Shown here one piece after another: positions 29,613 to 54,163 of a stretch of 64,000 nt of DNA. The translations under genes were made by a program, and so were the position numbers. The stretch spans positions 1,062,594 through 1,126,593 of the forward strand of contig MU270021.1 in assembly GCA_021432635.1 (NCBI GenBank), given 5' to 3'. Below the pieces are notes generated by a model, which saw only the letters and a list, made by a program, of their open reading frames with translations, did not search any database and had not been told where the DNA came from. This DNA is from Thozetella sp. PMI_491. Taxonomy: Eukaryota > Ascomycota > Sordariomycetes > Chaetosphaeriales > Chaetosphaeriaceae. How positions within the stretch are numbered: the first letter of the stretch is position 1; the number at the start of each line of letters is the position of its first letter.

Positions 29613-30911
29613 TTACAATTCGTCACGCGCCGGCCGTTCGATCCGCGATCCATCCCACGGCTTCACAAACCCTCCGATAATGTCACTCAAGAATTCCTCC
29701 AGCACGGTGGCCGATATTTCCGCCTTGCCCGTGTACGGAAATATACCCCCAGTTCTCATGTTTTCGATCGAGAGCCCCACCTTTGTGCCCTCTTGTAACC
29801 CAGCCGCTGCTGGCATCGCGGGGTGCTGGTTGGAGTCAATGATAGTGAACTGTAGCTCTGCCGAGTATTTCTTTGCCAAAGGTCTCATTGAATGTCGGTA
29901 CTTTTCCTTGTCGCCATCAGATAGCGCGAAGTAGTGTACCATGATGGTCTTCCCGGCCTCTGAGGCGCGCTGGCCGAGCTCTGCCATGTCTTTCCTTGTT
30001 GGCTCTAGGATCAGCGGATGGGTGCACTTGGATAGCAGTTCGTCCATCGCGTCGACAGACGATAGCTCAGTGAGAACATAGTCCTCCTCGTCGATGTTAT
30101 TGCGGCATCTGACGGAGGACCGGTGCTGCGCCGGGGGAAGAATGGCAAAGGAGAACCGGTCGGAGTACTGCCGCGCCAGGCTCCGGTAGCGGTCCTCATA
30201 TAACCCGGCTTCTTGAGGGAGTAGCTCGGCGGCAATGCTAATATCATCAGAACGCATGAAATTGTGCAACTCCTCCTTCTCGATCCCGGAGACCTTGGGA
30301 CGCAAAGCCCGCCGGAAAAAGGCTAAAATACTTGACCAGTGTCAGCAATTCTTTGCTCTGCGGGTTTGTAACAACGATTTAAGTGTAGCGGGACTTCTCA
30401 CGAGACTGCATTGCGGAGACCTCTGTATCGGTCAAAGTTCCCGTCCTTGTGATAAAGCCTGATTGCTGGGTATCTCATAACGTCCATCCTTCTACAGACC
30501 ATCGGATCCACGGCGCAGTCTACGCTAACCAAGTTGTCGGATTGAGCAGTGCTCTGTGCAGACACCCATTCGGTCTCCAAGGCCTGACTTTCTTGCCTAG
30601 TTCCTAGATCAGACTTCAGTTCTTACAAAGGCTTAAGTGGTATTACTGTGAGGGCTAGGAGGGATGTCAGCCGGTCCTAGAAGAATATGGGTAGATATGG
30701 ACGTTTGGCTACTCACTAGTACGACTTGAACAGATCACAGTCAGCGTAACAACGTTAGCCTCGAATCGATACGTGATATTTACTCACAAGCGATGAGCGT
30801 GCCAGAGTTCTGATCCAGGGCTCGACGAAGGCTATCTTGGGTCACATGGTTCCAACTTGCTCCCGGTAGTATAAACAGTGATAGGAGTAAGAATGGGTGT
30901 TGTTGCTTCAT
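29613..30911 (-). CDS. ER-retained PDI-family protein lacking CxxC, ends RDEL
   Basis: Probable lumenal ER protein of about 353 aa. Start ATG 30911-30909 opens a signal peptide (MKQQHPFLLLSLFI). It is followed by a thioredoxin-like domain: SGTLIAF, QALETEW, LVSVDCAVDPMVC, YPAIRLYHKDG, YRGLRNAVS. Strong exons are 30911-30788, 30613-30402 and 30330-29613; an 8-nt micro-exon at 30724-30717 best keeps the frame but is uncertain. Two acceptors are CAAG, not the commoner TAG/CAG. At the place where PDI has WCGHC no CxxC is present, so it looks redox-inactive. The long C-terminal part resembles b/b'-type domains. The last four residues are RDEL, a variant HDEL/KDEL retrieval signal. It is divergent from the prolyl hydroxylase, 226 bp away. 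Confidence 0.78.
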
Positions 30912-31137
30912 TTTTGTGGAAAGATTAGTGTGAAAACAAATACTTGAGATGACATCGTTGCATCAGTCGACAAGTGGCATCATGTATACCATACCGCATG
31001 GGCCGGCTAAAAGGGCATCGTCGCAGCTTTCGCCACGCGCTTGGACTTAGCCGGATCCCTGGCGCTCGACATCGCTCTCATTTCCTCTTCACAATTTCAT
31101 CAAACTTTGTCCCTGTTTCCGACTTCTACTCTGCGCC
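30912..31137. promoter_or_regulatory. Bidirectional promoter of PDI-like and prolyl hydroxylase genes
   Basis: Only 226 bp separate the two divergent start codons, so the genes very probably share regulatory DNA. The right part is pyrimidine-rich on the plus strand, common just upstream of fungal start sites. I see no unambiguous TATA box. Confidence 0.6.
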
Positions 31138-31932
31138 ATGATATTTGCACGCATTCTCGCTGCCGCCCTAGTCTCTCACATTGTAAAAGGGTCTTCAGAT
31201 GGAGAAGCAGGCTCTACAGCTGATTTCACGTGCCAACACCCTCCGTATAGAGTGAATAAGCTCTCATCATCACCGTTGATTGTCTATATCCAAGGATTCT
31301 TGACGAACGACGAGCGTGAGCATCTCAAGCAAGTGTCTAAAAATAGCTTTCGGCAGTCTGTCATCGCCGGCCTGGATGGTGCTGCGAAGAGCTCGACCCG
31401 AACCTCGCAGTCGACCGACGTTCGTCGCGATGCGGTAGTGAAGTGCATCGAACAGCGTGCGCTGGACTTCCAGGGCTTTGATGTACAGGAGTCACACCTC
31501 GAGCCGCTGCAGCTGGTCAAATACGGCCCCGGGGAGCATTACGACTTCCACACCGACTGGTTCACAGATCCTCAGTACTACACTTCGTTCAACGGAGGCA
31601 ACCGGCTCTCGAGCTTCTTTGTCTATGTACAAGTCTTGAACGATACCACTGGAGGCGGGACAAACTTTCCCTTCATAGAGCCGCCGAAGGACGAGCGATG
31701 GTGCGGATTCGTGGAATGCGATGAGCCGTACGCGAATGGTGTCACGTTTAGGCCGGTTGAGGGAAATGCCATTTTCTGGGAGAACTTGACACCAGGGGGT
31801 GTAGGTGACATGAGGACAGAGCACGCAGGACTGCCGGTAACCACTGGCAGCAAAATTGGGATGAACATATGGACAAGACAGGTACCGCAAAGTGAGGAAG
31901 TGAGGAGGGAGGATTTGCCTCTAGACTTTTAA
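31138..31932 (+). CDS. Prolyl 4-hydroxylase-type 2OG-Fe(II) oxygenase
   Basis: Intronless 264-aa protein. Start ATG 31138 opens a signal peptide (MIFARILAAALVSHIV), so it enters the ER. The iron ligands and 2-oxoglutarate residue of the P4Hc family are all visible: His138-x-Asp140 in DFHTDWF, His229 in RTEHAG, and Lys239 in GSKIGMN. Further family landmarks are YIQGFLTNDE near the start, LVKYGPGEHY, and GGGTNFPF. Expected reaction is hydroxylation of peptidyl proline (or a related substrate) with succinate and CO2 release. It has no ER-retention signal of its own (ends LPLDF). The divergent PDI-like neighbour has one, reminiscent of the animal alpha/beta enzyme. Confidence 0.9.
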   Translation: MIFARILAAALVSHIVKGSSDGEAGSTADFTCQHPPYRVNKLSSSPLIVYIQGFLTNDEREHLKQVSKNSFRQSVIAGLDGAAKSSTRTSQSTDVRRDAVVKCIEQRALDFQGFDVQESHLEPLQLVKYGPGEHYDFHTDWFTDPQYYTSFNGGNRLSSFFVYVQVLNDTTGGGTNFPFIEPPKDERWCGFVECDEPYANGVTFRPVEGNAIFWENLTPGGVGDMRTEHAGLPVTTGSKIGMNIWTRQVPQSEEVRREDLPLDF

Positions 31933-36154: not shown

Positions 36155-37490
36155 ATGAGTCGGCTTCCGTTCTCGATGACGCAGCTGTTCGCCCTATGGG
36201 GAGCACTCCTGCTGGCGCTGCTGCCACACGCCGCGGCTCAGTGCTCCGGGGTTACGGGAAAGAGCAACCAGAAGATGGGATCGGGCTACACTTCCAGCAT
36301 CCTTGCAACGGGTCTGGGAACTCCTCGCGGTATCGCGATGGATACCGAAGGCAACCTGCTTGTTGCCGAGCAGCAGGGCGGTAGGGTGCGAAGGCTGAGC
36401 CTGACGGACGAGGGCAGCAATGTTTGCGTTAGCGCCAATAAAGTGCTTATTAACGAGGGAACCGTAAGTTATCCTCAGGTTCTGGCCGGCACAGACGGGA
36501 ATTTAACAGATAAGCCAGACGAACCACGCAGTCGCCGTCTCTGCTGATGGCAAGACCATCTTTGTGTCTAACCTGCAGAAAGTCACAGCGTACCCCTATG
36601 ACGTCGCTGCAGGCACTGTCGGGACCGGCAAGACCATCATTACGAACATGCAGAACAACGGACCCCACCCCACCCGAGCCATTCTGACGTCCAAGTTCAG
36701 CCCGGACACCCTGCTCGTGACCATCGGGTCGAACGCCAACGTTGACACGGCCACCGCGGACAAGGCGGCTGGCCGCTGCATGATTAAGATGTTCAGCATC
36801 AAGGAGATCATGAATACGCCTGTCAACTTCGCCACCGGAGGTGAGATCCTTGGATGGGGTCTTCGGAACCTGGTCGGCATGGGCGAGCACCCCATCAGCG
36901 GCGGCATCTGGTCGGTGGAGAACTCTATGGATGACATTCGGCTTGGCGGAAAGGACGTGCATAACGAGAACCCGGCCGAGAAGGCGAACTACCACGGAGC
37001 CCTAAACGATACCAGCAACAAGCTCAAGGGCGCTAACTTTGGCTACCCGTCGTGCGTGGCCGCCTGGGACACCGGCCTGCTCGGCGTCAGCTCGCTCTCT
37101 GTCGGCAGTCTTTTCAACCCGGACAGTACGCCCAAGTCAAGCGACTGCGCATCGCGCCAGCAGGCTCGCCTTCACTTCCCCTCCCATACGGCACCCCTGG
37201 ACATCAAGTGGACTGCCGATGGCCTCACTGCCTACATCAGCTTCCACGGCTCTTGGGACCGCAGCCCGGCCGATGGCTTCCGCGTCATGAAGGTCCAGTT
37301 CGGACCGGACGGGCAGCCCATCCCGGCGGCCAACAGTAAGAATGCTGCGACCATTGTCATGGAGAACCAGAACACCGGCTCCTGCCCTCGTGGCTGCTTC
37401 CGCCCCGTGGGTCTGGCTTTTGACAAGAAGAACCGACTCTTTGTGTCGAGCGATTCGACGGGCGAGATTCACGTCATCTATGGTGCCTAG
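36155..37490 (+). CDS. Secreted L-sorbosone/glucose dehydrogenase-like beta-propeller
   Basis: Two exons, 36155-36463 and 36510-37490, with a 46-nt GT..AG intron; about 429 aa. Start ATG 36155 gives a signal peptide (FALWGALLLALLPHAAAQ). The propeller repeats show GLGTPRGIAMDTEGNLLVAEQ, HAVAVSADGKTIFVSN, LGWGLRNLVGMGEHP, DIKWTADGLTAYISFHGSWDR and FRPVGLAFDKKNRLFVSSDSTG, the hallmarks of the PQQ-type sorbosone/aldose dehydrogenase superfamily (GSDH / SGL-like). CSGV and several Cys pairs suggest disulphides. It is likely an extracellular sugar or aldehyde oxidoreductase, or a structural relative; cofactor use cannot be judged here. Confidence 0.88.
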
Positions 37491-46217: not shown

Positions 46218-48439
46218 ATGGAAAAGCGGCCGGACAGCTGGTCCACCGACATCACGGAGGCGGATGAGTGGCCTCTCAGAACATGCACGTTCTCATACGA
46301 CCAAGACAAGAAGGAGTCTGTGGAGAAGGCCGTGTCTCCGGGTGCAGAGAACAGAGGTACCGTGGAAGAGGACGACAGGCGCTCGTCGATACACTCAGAA
46401 TGGTCAAGAACTACAGTGGCAAGCAGAGAATCCTCGGACACGCTGCTCAAAACGTCACAGGAGGGTACCGAGAAAGATGTGAAAGGTGAGGACACTCCGG
46501 CCATTCCCCCTTTGACGCTTTCTAATCAACGAATGCAAGGAATCGACCCGATCTTCCTCAATGATGACTGGGAAAGCTTGATGCAGGACGCGAAGTACAG
46601 GGCAACGGTGTACTTTCAGCACTGCCGCTCCAACGACCTCCTTGCTCTGCGCTACCTCATGCTTTCTTTCCCCGATCAGTTCATCAGTCTCGTGAACAAG
46701 AAAGGCGAGAATGGCATCTCTGTTGCGGCCGTGAGCGGTGCGCTTGAGGTGGCATCTTACCTAGCGAAGCGAGGAGCAGATATGGGCATGCCCGACAAGG
46801 ACGGCAGAACACCGCTAATGCTCGCGACCATCCACGGCCACTATTCGATAGTCGAGTTCCTGCTGTCAAAAGGCGTTGATACGTCGCTGCGGGACCGCAA
46901 AGGCCAGACGGCGCTCCATTTTGCTCTTCCGTACGTGTCGGGAGCCAAGGTGCGGAATAACTCTCTAGGTGAGAAGAAAGACGCCGAGGCGGAGGAAAGC
47001 CGCATCAACATCGCCATTCGACTGCTGCGGTACAATCTCGATCACCACTCCGGGGAAGACCACTTGGGTCAGAATTACCTGTCCCCATCCAGCTCGACGA
47101 CCGACTTGTCAGAAAAGGGCGACACGAGTAACAATCCCGCCCCCGACGGGGGTCGACGAGCATGGTTGCAGGTCCTGGGGACCTTTCTCATTTACTTCAA
47201 TACCGCAGGTAAGCTTGGTCTTCCGGACGCCGCTCTTATTGAGCTGAGAAATCTAACATGGACACAGGAATTAGCAGCAGCTTCGGTGTGTACCAGACAT
47301 TCTACCCGCAGAGCTTTGGACTGGCCACCACGCAAGCCTCGGTTATCGGCTCGGTCCAATCTTTCCTTCTTCTCTTCACTTCAGTAATAGGCGGGCCTCT
47401 CTATGATTCAGGGCTGTATAAATATCTCTTGATGGCTGGGTCATCCCTTGTGGTCCTGTCGACGTTTTCGCAGAGCCTAAGCAGCCAGTTCTACCAGCTG
47501 CTCCTGTCGCAGGGCGTTGGAGTCGGGTTCGGGGGCGGCCTTGTTGGGTTCCTCGGCCCGACCATTCTCTCTACCTACTTTTCTACCAAACTTCCTTTCG
47601 CCAGTGGCCTTGGCGCCCTGGGTGGTGGTGTTGCTGGGTAAGGCTATCCCTATCATTACGCTTGGTCGATCCCTTCTAACGTGCGCCATAGGATAATGTA
47701 CCCAATCATGTTCCGCAACCTTGAGCCGGCCATTGGCTACGGATGGACCGTCCGCGTATTCACTCTCATCGTCGTCATTTCCCTTGGCGTCGCAATGCTC
47801 GTCTTGAAGCCGCGAGCAGCGCCGAGTGGCAAGCGAGTTTTCTTCGACCCAACCGCGCTACGCGACAGGCCTTACCTTATATTTGTTTTCGGAAACTTCA
47901 TGATCAATCTTGGCCTTTATGTTCCTTTCTCTTTCCTTCCAACCTTTGCCAAGGAGCGAGGTCTTGCAGACGACAACCTCAGCTTGTATCTTATAGCAAT
48001 CATGAACGTGGGGAGCCTCTTCGGCCGTGTCATCCCCTCTCTGGCCGCAACTAGAACCGGACCCCTCAACATGATTATCTTGACTGCAGTGGCAACCTCG
48101 CTAGCAGGCGGATCACTACTTCTGGTCAACTCGCTGCCAGCACTGCTGATGATTTCAATTCTTTACGGCTTCTCGACCGGCGCGTACTTCGCATTGCAGC
48201 CGGTTACACTCATCTCCCTCTGCCCCGACCCGGCACGCCTCGGAAGTCGTGTGGGTATGGCGTCTGCTTTCTTAGCGTTTGGAGCGTTGCCAACATCCAC
48301 GGTTGCTGGAGCTCTCCTCGACGCAGTTGGCTTTCAGGGAGTTTGGCTATGGGGTGCCGCCACTACTGGACTGGGTGGCGCTCTGATGGCGCTGGCAAGG
48401 ATCCAGAAGGCAGGATTAGTCTTGACGACTCGCGTCTAA
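46218..48439 (+). CDS. Ankyrin-repeat / MCT-like MFS fusion protein
   Basis: About 702 aa in three exons: 46218-47208, 47268-47637 and 47692-48439, with introns of 59 and 54 nt, GT..AG and in phase. Residues 1-120 are polar and disordered-looking. Residues ~125-245 carry ankyrin-type repeats (NGISVAAVSGALEVASYLAKR, DGRTPLMLATIHGHYSIVEFLL, KGQTALHFAL). At ~309 begins the classic monocarboxylate-transporter-like start PDGGRRAWLQVLGTFL, then FGVYQTFY, GGPLYDSG, GFGGGLVGFLGP and the remaining membrane segments to the C-terminus. The ankyrin part and the first helix lie in one uninterrupted exon, so this is not simply two adjacent genes merged by an intron. Likely a membrane transporter with a cytosolic regulatory or scaffold domain. 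It is convergent with the permease. Confidence 0.85.
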
Positions 48440-51401: not shown

Positions 51402-54163
51402 ATGGACCCTCTCAGCATCATTTCCGTGACGGCAGCCGTGGTCGACTTTGTTGACTTCGCGGTGTCTGTAGTCTCCGGTGCAAACAAGATCTCGAAGTCT
51501 ACAAATGGCGGCTCCCCCAAAGTCAACAAGATGCAGGTCGTCGCCGACGAGCTAAAGCATCTGAGCTCTCAGATACAGAGAAGCGCCGTCATTCTCAACA
51601 AAACGAAGACAAGGAATTCCGAATCCCTTCAAGCTCTTCTCAAAATCTGTAGCGACTGTGGAACCGCTAGCGATGAACTCTCTGGCTTGCTGTCGGCTGT
51701 CCGCGCCCAGAAGACAACCAAGCTGGAGCCCTTCTCATGTGCGCTTCGAGAGCTGTGGTCGGAGACCAAGATTGCGGAAGCGTGCGGTAGTTTAACACGA
51801 ATCCGGGAGCAGATGATGACTGCCGCGATAGTTTGTCTCTGGTGAGAACCCCTGCCACCTTTATTACCTCGGGCTCACTGATAGATTCTAGGGAGGATGC
51901 CAACTCCGCAGGAGAACAACTCCACAGAGTCTCCGAAGCCCAGGCTGAGATGATCGGCACCTTGGACAACTTGCGCCAGGTAGTCGGGACCTTCAGCAAA
52001 TCGCTTGAGAAGCTTCTCAGTCGGCCACCAGCAAACGACGATATCGCGTCAGATGGGAAACCTCAATGGGGGGGCCCTATCAATCTCCCAGACCATCTTA
52101 TACCAGCGACAGGCAAGCCAGAGGAGCTAGTGGCGACGAAAAAGGCGGAAGTTGAAATCATCAATAGTCTCCTCTTCGACACCATCCACGACCGTGAGAG
52201 GTCGATACCGGAGGCCTACAAGAAAACCTTCGAATGGATGTTTGACGGTGTCTCCCAACCCAACGACAATGCCGTGGCTTCTAGCTTTACAGAGTGGCTA
52301 CGGCGTGATTCCCAGGACATGTACTGGATAGCAGGAAAGCCAGGCTCTGGAAAATCGACTCTAATGAAGTATATCCTCAAACATCATCACCTAGAAGAGT
52401 TTTTGGACCAGTGGCAGATCGGGCCCGGTAACCTACCTCTCCTCATTGCTGGTTACTATTCCTGGAATGCTGGCATGAAGATGCAGAACAGTTGTGACGG
52501 CCTTCTCCGTACGCTCCTTCACGAATGTCTCACACGATTTCCCGATCTGGCTCCGGTAATATGTCCCAAGCGATGGACCATATTGAAGGTGTTCGACAAA
52601 CAGGCCATCCTTCCCGAATGGACCTGGGATGAGCTCGCCAGCAGTTTCCAGTTGCTCGCAGGCCAGGCTGGCAAATTATTCCGTCTCGCCTTATTTATTG
52701 ACGGCTTAGACGAGTTTGAAGGCGATCATTCGAGCCTCGTTGATTTCATATGGAAAATAAGCCGCCATGATGGAATTAAAGTTTGCGTCAGCAGTCGCCC
52801 TTGGAATGTTTTCAACGATGCATACGCGCAATCCCCCAGTTTGGCTGTCGAGACCTTGACCCGAGATGACATTGCGCTCTTGGTCCATGAAAAACTCGGC
52901 GAGAGCCCTGGATTCGAGGAGATGAAAGCTATTTCTCCCGAGGAAGCCACCCAAGTTCTGGACGGTATTGTGGAGAAAGCAGAAGGGGTTTTCCTTTGGG
53001 TTTCTCTGGTCGTACGCTCCTTGCTAGAAAACCTACGCGAGGGAGACACTCTGCAGAACTTGAAAGCAACGCTGGATGCTCTTCCAACAGACCTTTCTAA
53101 GCTATTCGACTCCATATGGAACCGCATTAGCCCCCGATATCTCGCAGAAGCTTCCAAGATCATGCAGATCCGTAGTGTGAGGAAACATCCGCTCACCCCT
53201 CTCACACTATGGTGTACAGATGAGAGCGTACCACTCGACTTCAACGTCCGGAAGATAACACGCACCATGTCCTTGGGAATTCGCAAAAATATCAAGCGGA
53301 GAGTCAACAGCCGCACAAGAGGGCTCCTAGAGCTAAAATCCGCCGGCCACATTGACTATTTGCATAGAACTGTCCGAGAATGGACAACGGACAAGGAAGT
53401 ATGGTCTCGAATCGTTTCTCAGTCCCCGGCAGATTTTGATCCCAATCTCTCCCTTATGAGGTCTAAGATGATTCAAGTCGAATTTGACAGTGCCTCGGGT
53501 CGCCCCTCTTTTCTATTTTGGACCCAAGTGAACGATTGCTTATACTATGGGTCTTTCTGTCAAGATCGCGCTATCAACTGCCGGACACAAATGACGCTTT
53601 TGGAATTGCTTGAGTCCAAGTGGACGCCACCGGCAGAAACTGAAAACCACGCGTTGCCGAAGGCATTTCAACTATGGACCAAGGTGCACACCCAAGACAG
53701 GCGCCGGAATTCGCTCCTGGGGGTGGCGGCCCAGTTTGCAATAGGAGCTCCCGTAAAGGCCGGAGTGGATGCCAATCCGGGACTCCTCCAAGACCCGCAT
53801 CCTCGTACCGTCTCGCTACTGGAGAACGCGATCTTCGGACCACCCCTAATTGTGTGCAGCAACGGCAAGTTTCACGAGCTAGGCCCCCGGTCACCTGGCC
53901 ACAGACTCGACCTGGTGGGGTTTCTCATCGAAAGCGGAGCCTCCCCAGATGTCGCTGTTCACAACCGTGTTCGTTATATTAGGAGGACTCGTGACCCGAA
54001 TACGGCCGATGGGAAATACTGGTCAGCGGTTGATGATCTGATAGCAAGCAAAATCGAAGTATCACACAACGATGAAGTTAAAAGTTGCGACGCCGAGAAC
54101 AACCTGTCTTCTAAGAGGTCCTCAAGGCTAAGCCTCCCGTCTTTCTTTAGCAGAAAGGGGTAA
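51402..54163 (+). CDS. NACHT-type STAND receptor (fungal NLR)
   Basis: About 903 aa in two exons, 51402-51841 and 51892-54163, with a 50-nt GT..AG intron. The start is ATG 51402 (MDPLSIISVTAAVVDFVDF), a typical N-terminus of fungal HeLo-like/STAND proteins. The N-terminal 250 residues are helical. NACHT Walker A is GKPGSGKST at ~294, and Walker B LFIDGLDEFEGD at ~414, followed by KVCVSSRPWNVF. The helical/winged part ends with GHIDYLHRTVREW at ~630. The C-terminus is short: only a single ankyrin-like helix pair (LVGFLIESGASPDVAV) and no WD, TPR or LRR array. Such proteins act in non-self recognition and regulated cell death. The missing repeat array may be real or due to decay. Confidence 0.88.

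Follow-up and report, generated by a model that had tools for sequence, protein, structure and literature searches.

Organisation of the locus

We analysed a window of 64,000 nucleotides from Thozetella sp. PMI_491 (G000:C7:1062594-1126593; genome of 72.3 Mb in 157 contigs), in which a gene for a prolyl 4-hydroxylase (P4H) and a gene for a relative of protein disulphide isomerase (PDI) are arranged divergently. The P4H gene occupies window positions 31138-31932, and the PDI-like gene positions 29613-30911. The gap between them (30912-31137) has the 226 bp given in the earlier note, which had proposed that the two proteins form a two-subunit secretory hydroxylase analogous to the collagen prolyl 4-hydroxylase (C-P4H) of animals. 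The features of the locus, including a retrieval signal for the endoplasmic reticulum (ER), are as follows.

30788..30911, minus strand: PDI-like exon 1 (124 nt), signal-like hydrophobic N-terminus and beginning of thioredoxin domain a
30717..30724, minus strand: PDI-like exon 2, an 8-nt microexon, at the same position in the paralogue on contig C50
30647..30654, minus strand: PDI-like exon 3, an 8-nt microexon, start of the former active-site loop, at the same position in the C50 paralogue
30402..30596, minus strand: PDI-like exon 4, remainder of domain a
29613..30330, minus strand: PDI-like exon 5, domains b and b', ARDEL and stop
29616..29627, minus strand: C-terminal RDEL, an ER retrieval signal of HDEL/KDEL type, in the rebuilt gene model
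30912..31137, no strand: intergenic region between both start codons (226 bp), putative shared promoter
31138..31932, plus strand: P4H-like 2-oxoglutarate (2OG)-Fe(II) oxygenase, single exon, 264 aa

The hydroxylase

The open reading frame (ORF) of the P4H matched PF13640 with 41.1 bits (cut-off 27). The iron ligands HxD...H of the double-stranded beta-helix and the lysine that binds 2OG were in place (H138, D140, H229 and K239), and the protein ended in DLPLDF, without an ER retrieval signal, as had been claimed. Its nearest structures were peptidyl prolyl 4-hydroxylases, the top one of which binds a (Ser-Pro)5 peptide. The N-terminus was hydrophobic and signal-like when read by eye, which is how ER targeting was judged for both proteins. 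Four cysteines were found (C32, C103, C189 and C194), none of them after C194. The database model of this protein, P0001, has 238 aa and is 26 residues shorter than the ORF. The stretch that it lacks is kept by relatives, and therefore we preferred the unspliced ORF of 264 aa. P4H-like sequence was present in 14 matching stretches of this genome, with several paralogues. From its sequence, the window protein is most likely a secretory-pathway prolyl 4-hydroxylase, an assignment that we treat as putative.

The PDI-like protein

The single ORF in the ORF list spans just part of exon 5 of the PDI-like gene. We rebuilt the gene, as well as its paralogue on contig C50, from predicted splice signals and from comparison of the two. 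The rebuilt window gene starts at 30911, ends at 29613 on the minus strand, and consists of five exons encoding 350 aa with the tail ARDEL. Exon 1 was 124 nt long in both paralogues, and both had the same 8-nt microexons. The protein was over the cut-off for PF00085 (residues 22-117) and for PF13848, and its domain order was a-b-b', with a' absent and the b' sequence kept.

The place of WCGHC was occupied by SQQES (residues 46-50, across exons 3 and 4), and no CxxC was found anywhere in the 350 aa. The earlier note had described a PDI relative that lacks WCGHC and ends in RDEL, and it had named beforehand the return of a CxxC in a corrected gene model as evidence against its proposal. The description held, and the five-exon model did not restore the motif. 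The tandem thioredoxin folds of the PDI family were present, and its CxxC active sites in a and a' were absent. Domain a has kept C74 and C81, a cysteine pair located away from the active site. The same genome encodes a separate PDI with two WCGHC motifs and HDEL.

We extended this analysis to 59 rows of PDI-like sequences, namely 57 database proteins and the two rebuilt models, which duplicate two of these. An active-site CxxC was found in none of the 59 rows, its place being readable in 45, several of which are mis-spliced there. A single cysteine was left at the motif in three of them when read by eye, at the second place in P0165 and P0166 and at the first place in P0176. A retrieval tail (HDEL, HEEL, RDEL, HSEL or HNEL) was present in 56 of the 59 rows, and the three tail-less ones were short models of 195-235 aa. 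In the structure model of one relative, P0123, three thioredoxin folds could be read from its elements and structural match; its score for TIGR01130 was 100.5 bits, below the cut-off of 344.25. The PDI-like profile and model matched calsequestrin and ERp44 as well.

The database models of both PDI-like genes of this species, P0121 and P0122, skip the 8-nt microexons, so that the former active site is misreported. P0122 was 100% identical to the window protein in the best local alignment, which covered 86% of the query. The same type of fault was seen in several relatives. A model artefact hiding a CxxC was ruled out by rebuilding both paralogues and by comparison with relatives.

A further P4H/PDI-like pair on contig C50

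We observed a second divergent P4H/PDI-like pair in this genome, on contig G000:C50 (501,078 bases), with a gap of 421 bp. The two PDI-like proteins were 41% identical, the C50 one having the tail HEEL. The two P4Hs were about 60% identical overall (66% over residues 66-261, 43% over residues 2-66). A segmental duplication or a wider cluster was considered as well and rejected. We compared window positions 15000-45000 with C50 positions 317000-326900 and 330600-340500 (C50 positions 326900-328088 lay outside the comparison) and found no common ORF of at least 60 aa at E <1e-3. Hence no third gene was common to the two pairs in the stretches compared.

Linkage in other genomes

We then considered the database PDI-like proteins together with the P4H relatives listed (120 of 450 matches). 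Two proteins were taken to share a contig when the 'longest contig' sizes of their protein clusters were exactly equal, and adjacency itself was read directly for the window and C50 pairs only. A contig was shared with a listed P4H relative by 18 of the 57 PDI-like proteins, two of which are from this genome, and thus by 16 of the 55 others. The earlier note had counted a lack of synteny elsewhere as evidence against its proposal, and on this point the proposal held, the pair being linked in other genomes as well. The linked pairs outside Thozetella came from species that we take to belong to the Sordariales and Xylariales, and from one Joint Genome Institute (JGI) metagenome contig. This contig is 9,081 bp long and its genes are named prolyl 4-hydroxylase and protein disulfide-isomerase A1 in the source. 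Three pairs had consecutive gene numbers; in genomes other than that of Thozetella, such numbering was found in Xylaria hypoxylon and Daldinia sp. EC12. The gene numbering and the short metagenome contig support adjacency beyond the window and C50 pairs.

Both genes were on a common contig in 15 of 21 non-Thozetella genomes, while 1.4 would be expected if genomes of 45 Mb are assumed. The 21 genomes were picked by eye by organism name as those with both proteins listed, apparently from one assembly. Neither Thozetella nor the metagenome contig belongs to this set, nor do Xylaria arbuscula, X. curta, X. bambusicola and Hypoxylon rubiginosum, for each of which the two records seem to stem from separate assemblies; if these four species are counted as misses, the result is 15 of 25. 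Chance adjacency was ruled out by the C50 pair and the contig sharing.

Outside the Xylariales, contig sharing was found in 5 of 5 combinations in which the P4H and PDI types matched (including the metagenome contig, visible only because it is linked) and in 1 of 11 mismatched ones, in a post hoc test with types assigned by eye, weak forks in the P4H tree (SH-like approximate likelihood ratio test, SH-aLRT, 81-83) and three Echria combinations omitted. Such type-matched sharing is what inheritance of the two genes as a pair predicts. Of the linked pairs outside the Xylariales, three were of the window type in both trees and three in neither, a pattern that is weak alone. The P4H tree was a quick tree in which the three shortest of the 120 rows (<195 aa) were omitted and P0001 was replaced by the window ORF.

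In summary, the gene pair is real and is linked across many related genomes. We found no description of it in the titles and abstract beginnings searched, most subscription papers lying outside that scope.

Comparison with known systems

According to PMC9676403, animal C-P4H is an alpha2beta2 enzyme with PDI as its beta subunit (PDB 7ZSC). In the human enzyme, the same paper describes disulphides from C311 to the CGHC of a' and from C529 to the CGHC of a, a further hold on PDI through the hydrophobic pocket of b', and the PDI tail as the ER retention signal (PMC9676403). The fungal pair resembles this system in that a secretory catalytic protein without a retrieval signal has a PDI-type neighbour that carries one. 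However, the neighbour is a separate, CxxC-less paralogue, whereas the animal beta subunit is PDI itself, and it has a-b-b' only, with a' and both CxxC gone. The fungal enzyme consists of the catalytic domain and a short N-terminus, without the dimerisation and peptide-substrate-binding domains of the animal alpha subunit. An equivalent of C529 is absent from it. The match to human C-P4H begins at residue 35 of the window P4H model, and C32, at most a possible counterpart of C311, sits just before the aligned range.

Since both CxxC and a' are missing from the PDI-like protein, and the P4H has no cysteine after C194, any complex would be non-covalent or held via other cysteines. The two-subunit analogy drawn in the earlier note is therefore only partly sustained. 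A tail-less enzyme beside a tailed PDI-type neighbour makes it reasonable, but an alpha2beta2 assembly is not implied, because the anchoring and dimerisation features are absent. By working analogy the pair is of the P4H/PDI kind, and it stands outside the animal C-P4H family.

With canonical PDI (PDI1 family; 8PKO_B from Chaetomium, 2B5E from yeast), the fungal PDI-like protein shares a-b-b', a tail of HDEL type and the C74/C81 pair, but it has lost both CxxC motifs and a'. To our knowledge, there is no PDI-like gene linked to an algal or plant P4H. The MTP and EDEM/Htm1 complexes use ordinary PDI and are not known to contain a redox-dead paralogue. Judged by PDB titles, MTP and EDEM/Htm1-PDI show that PDI can also be a subunit of other ER proteins. 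Chlamydomonas Cr-P4H-1, an algal/plant P4H (3GZE, 2JIG), is described as monomeric in PMC9676403, unlike the proposed fungal pair.

Interpretation and alternatives

We lean, with modest confidence, towards the reading that the pair comprises a secretory prolyl 4-hydroxylase and its dedicated partner, a redox-dead PDI paralogue that is non-catalytic and ER-retained. Binding would involve b' and the former active-site surfaces of the PDI-like protein rather than a CxxC disulphide, and would keep the hydroxylase soluble and folded. The RDEL/HDEL tail of the partner would hold the enzyme in the ER, where it may 4-hydroxylate prolines in secreted proline-rich or collagen-like proteins. A broader and more tentative proposal, which we hold to be possible but somewhat doubtful, is that Sordariomycetes independently evolved a two-subunit secretory P4H in which an a'-less, redox-dead copy of PDI serves as scaffold and ER anchor only, and that this enzyme makes hydroxyproline-bearing secreted proteins, including collagen-like (GPP)n ones.

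Several observations weigh against this partnership. All the evidence for it is genomic. A tail of HDEL type was absent from 119 of the 120 P4H relatives listed of 450 matches, partnered or unpartnered, and therefore its absence alone is no evidence for a partner. Tail-less P4Hs occurred also in species with no listed PDI-like protein, so that the sequence pattern does not need retention by a partner. In Trichoderma, Colletotrichum and several species that are presumably Leotiomycetes, a P4H was found without a PDI-like match among the 7,995 candidates scored, which is no proof of absence, and the P4H may work alone there. The listed P4H was on a different contig in 6 of the 21 genomes, with 120 of 450 P4H matches listed; by our own reading of the trees, its type mismatches the PDI type in all six. 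The label 'linked' did not cluster on the P4H tree, where 158 of 500 shuffles gave an equally low value, or on the PDI-like tree (346 of 500), and therefore linkage marks no single clade. No promoter words (7- to 10-mers) common to the 226-bp and 421-bp gaps were found above shuffles. Moreover, the anchors of the human complex (the a' domain, both CxxC and C529) are all absent from the fungal pair.

The two proteins could instead serve the same secreted clients without being subunits, the PDI-like protein being an ER-retained client chaperone similar to ERp44 or calsequestrin and the genes being neighbours through co-regulation. The matches to these two proteins, the retained b' sequence and the P4H-bearing species without a PDI-like match among the candidates scored would all agree with this. 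We consider it unlikely, as the linkage involves a single enzyme gene and the paralogues seem to pair by type, which fits a dedicated partner better than a general chaperone. Quite improbable, in our view, is an oxygenase acting on one dedicated substrate, a ribosomal peptide or another residue, which the PDI-like protein would present. The several P4H paralogues in the genome leave room for such specialisation, but the best structural matches were to peptidyl prolyl 4-hydroxylases, first among them one with bound (Ser-Pro)5, and over the regions compared no additional gene was common to the window and C50 pairs. Finally, the PDI-like gene might be a decaying paralogue that is adjacent by coincidence, given that its active site is lost and two 8-nt exons are needed to read it. 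The second pair, the linkage in other genomes and the ER tail conserved in 56 of 59 rows make this very improbable.

If the proposed partnership of hydroxylase and redox-dead PDI is true, the P4H/PDI association has evolved repeatedly, and a naturally occurring partner without CxxC and a' would show which part of PDI is required for holding and retaining a prolyl hydroxylase. Peptidyl hydroxyproline would then be predicted in secreted fungal proteins, and the compact pair could be used for production of hydroxylated collagen in fungal hosts.

Candidate substrates

We searched the genome for the collagen family and obtained seven matches, of which six loci were read (L048, L050-L054), L049 sharing a reading frame with L048. 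L052 (G000:C17:207873-208028) encodes a protein of 325 aa that begins with a signal-like stretch and contains ten GPP triplets in a row; its C-terminus appeared hydrophobic and glycosylphosphatidylinositol (GPI)-like by eye. From these features it is a candidate fungal collagen-like secreted protein and a candidate substrate of the P4H. L048 (G000:C62:70192-70536) has 63 GXY triplets, 21 of them with proline at the Y position, and what looks like a single membrane span. Its repeats are probably on the cytosolic side, judging by eye from the basic residues after the span, and therefore we do not propose it as a substrate. The other four loci read appeared, by eye, to be low-complexity or unrelated.

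Other genes in the window

Three further regions of the window, all on the plus strand, were noted. At 36648-37490 there is a protein with a TrAA12-like domain (PF22807), whose ORF spans part of the profile only; it is possibly an AA12-type sugar oxidoreductase dependent on pyrroloquinoline quinone (PQQ). An ankyrin-repeat ORF (PF12796) closely followed by an ORF for a transporter of the major facilitator superfamily (MFS; PF07690) lies at 46218-48439. The end of the ankyrin ORF resembles, by what we take to be its motif, the start of a monocarboxylate-type transporter, and the two ORFs may belong to one ankyrin-MFS fusion gene that is interrupted by introns. A nucleoside triphosphatase (NTPase) with NPHP3_N, an NB-ARC-like match and DUF7791 lies at 51950-54163, presumably of the kind found in fungal NLR-like proteins.
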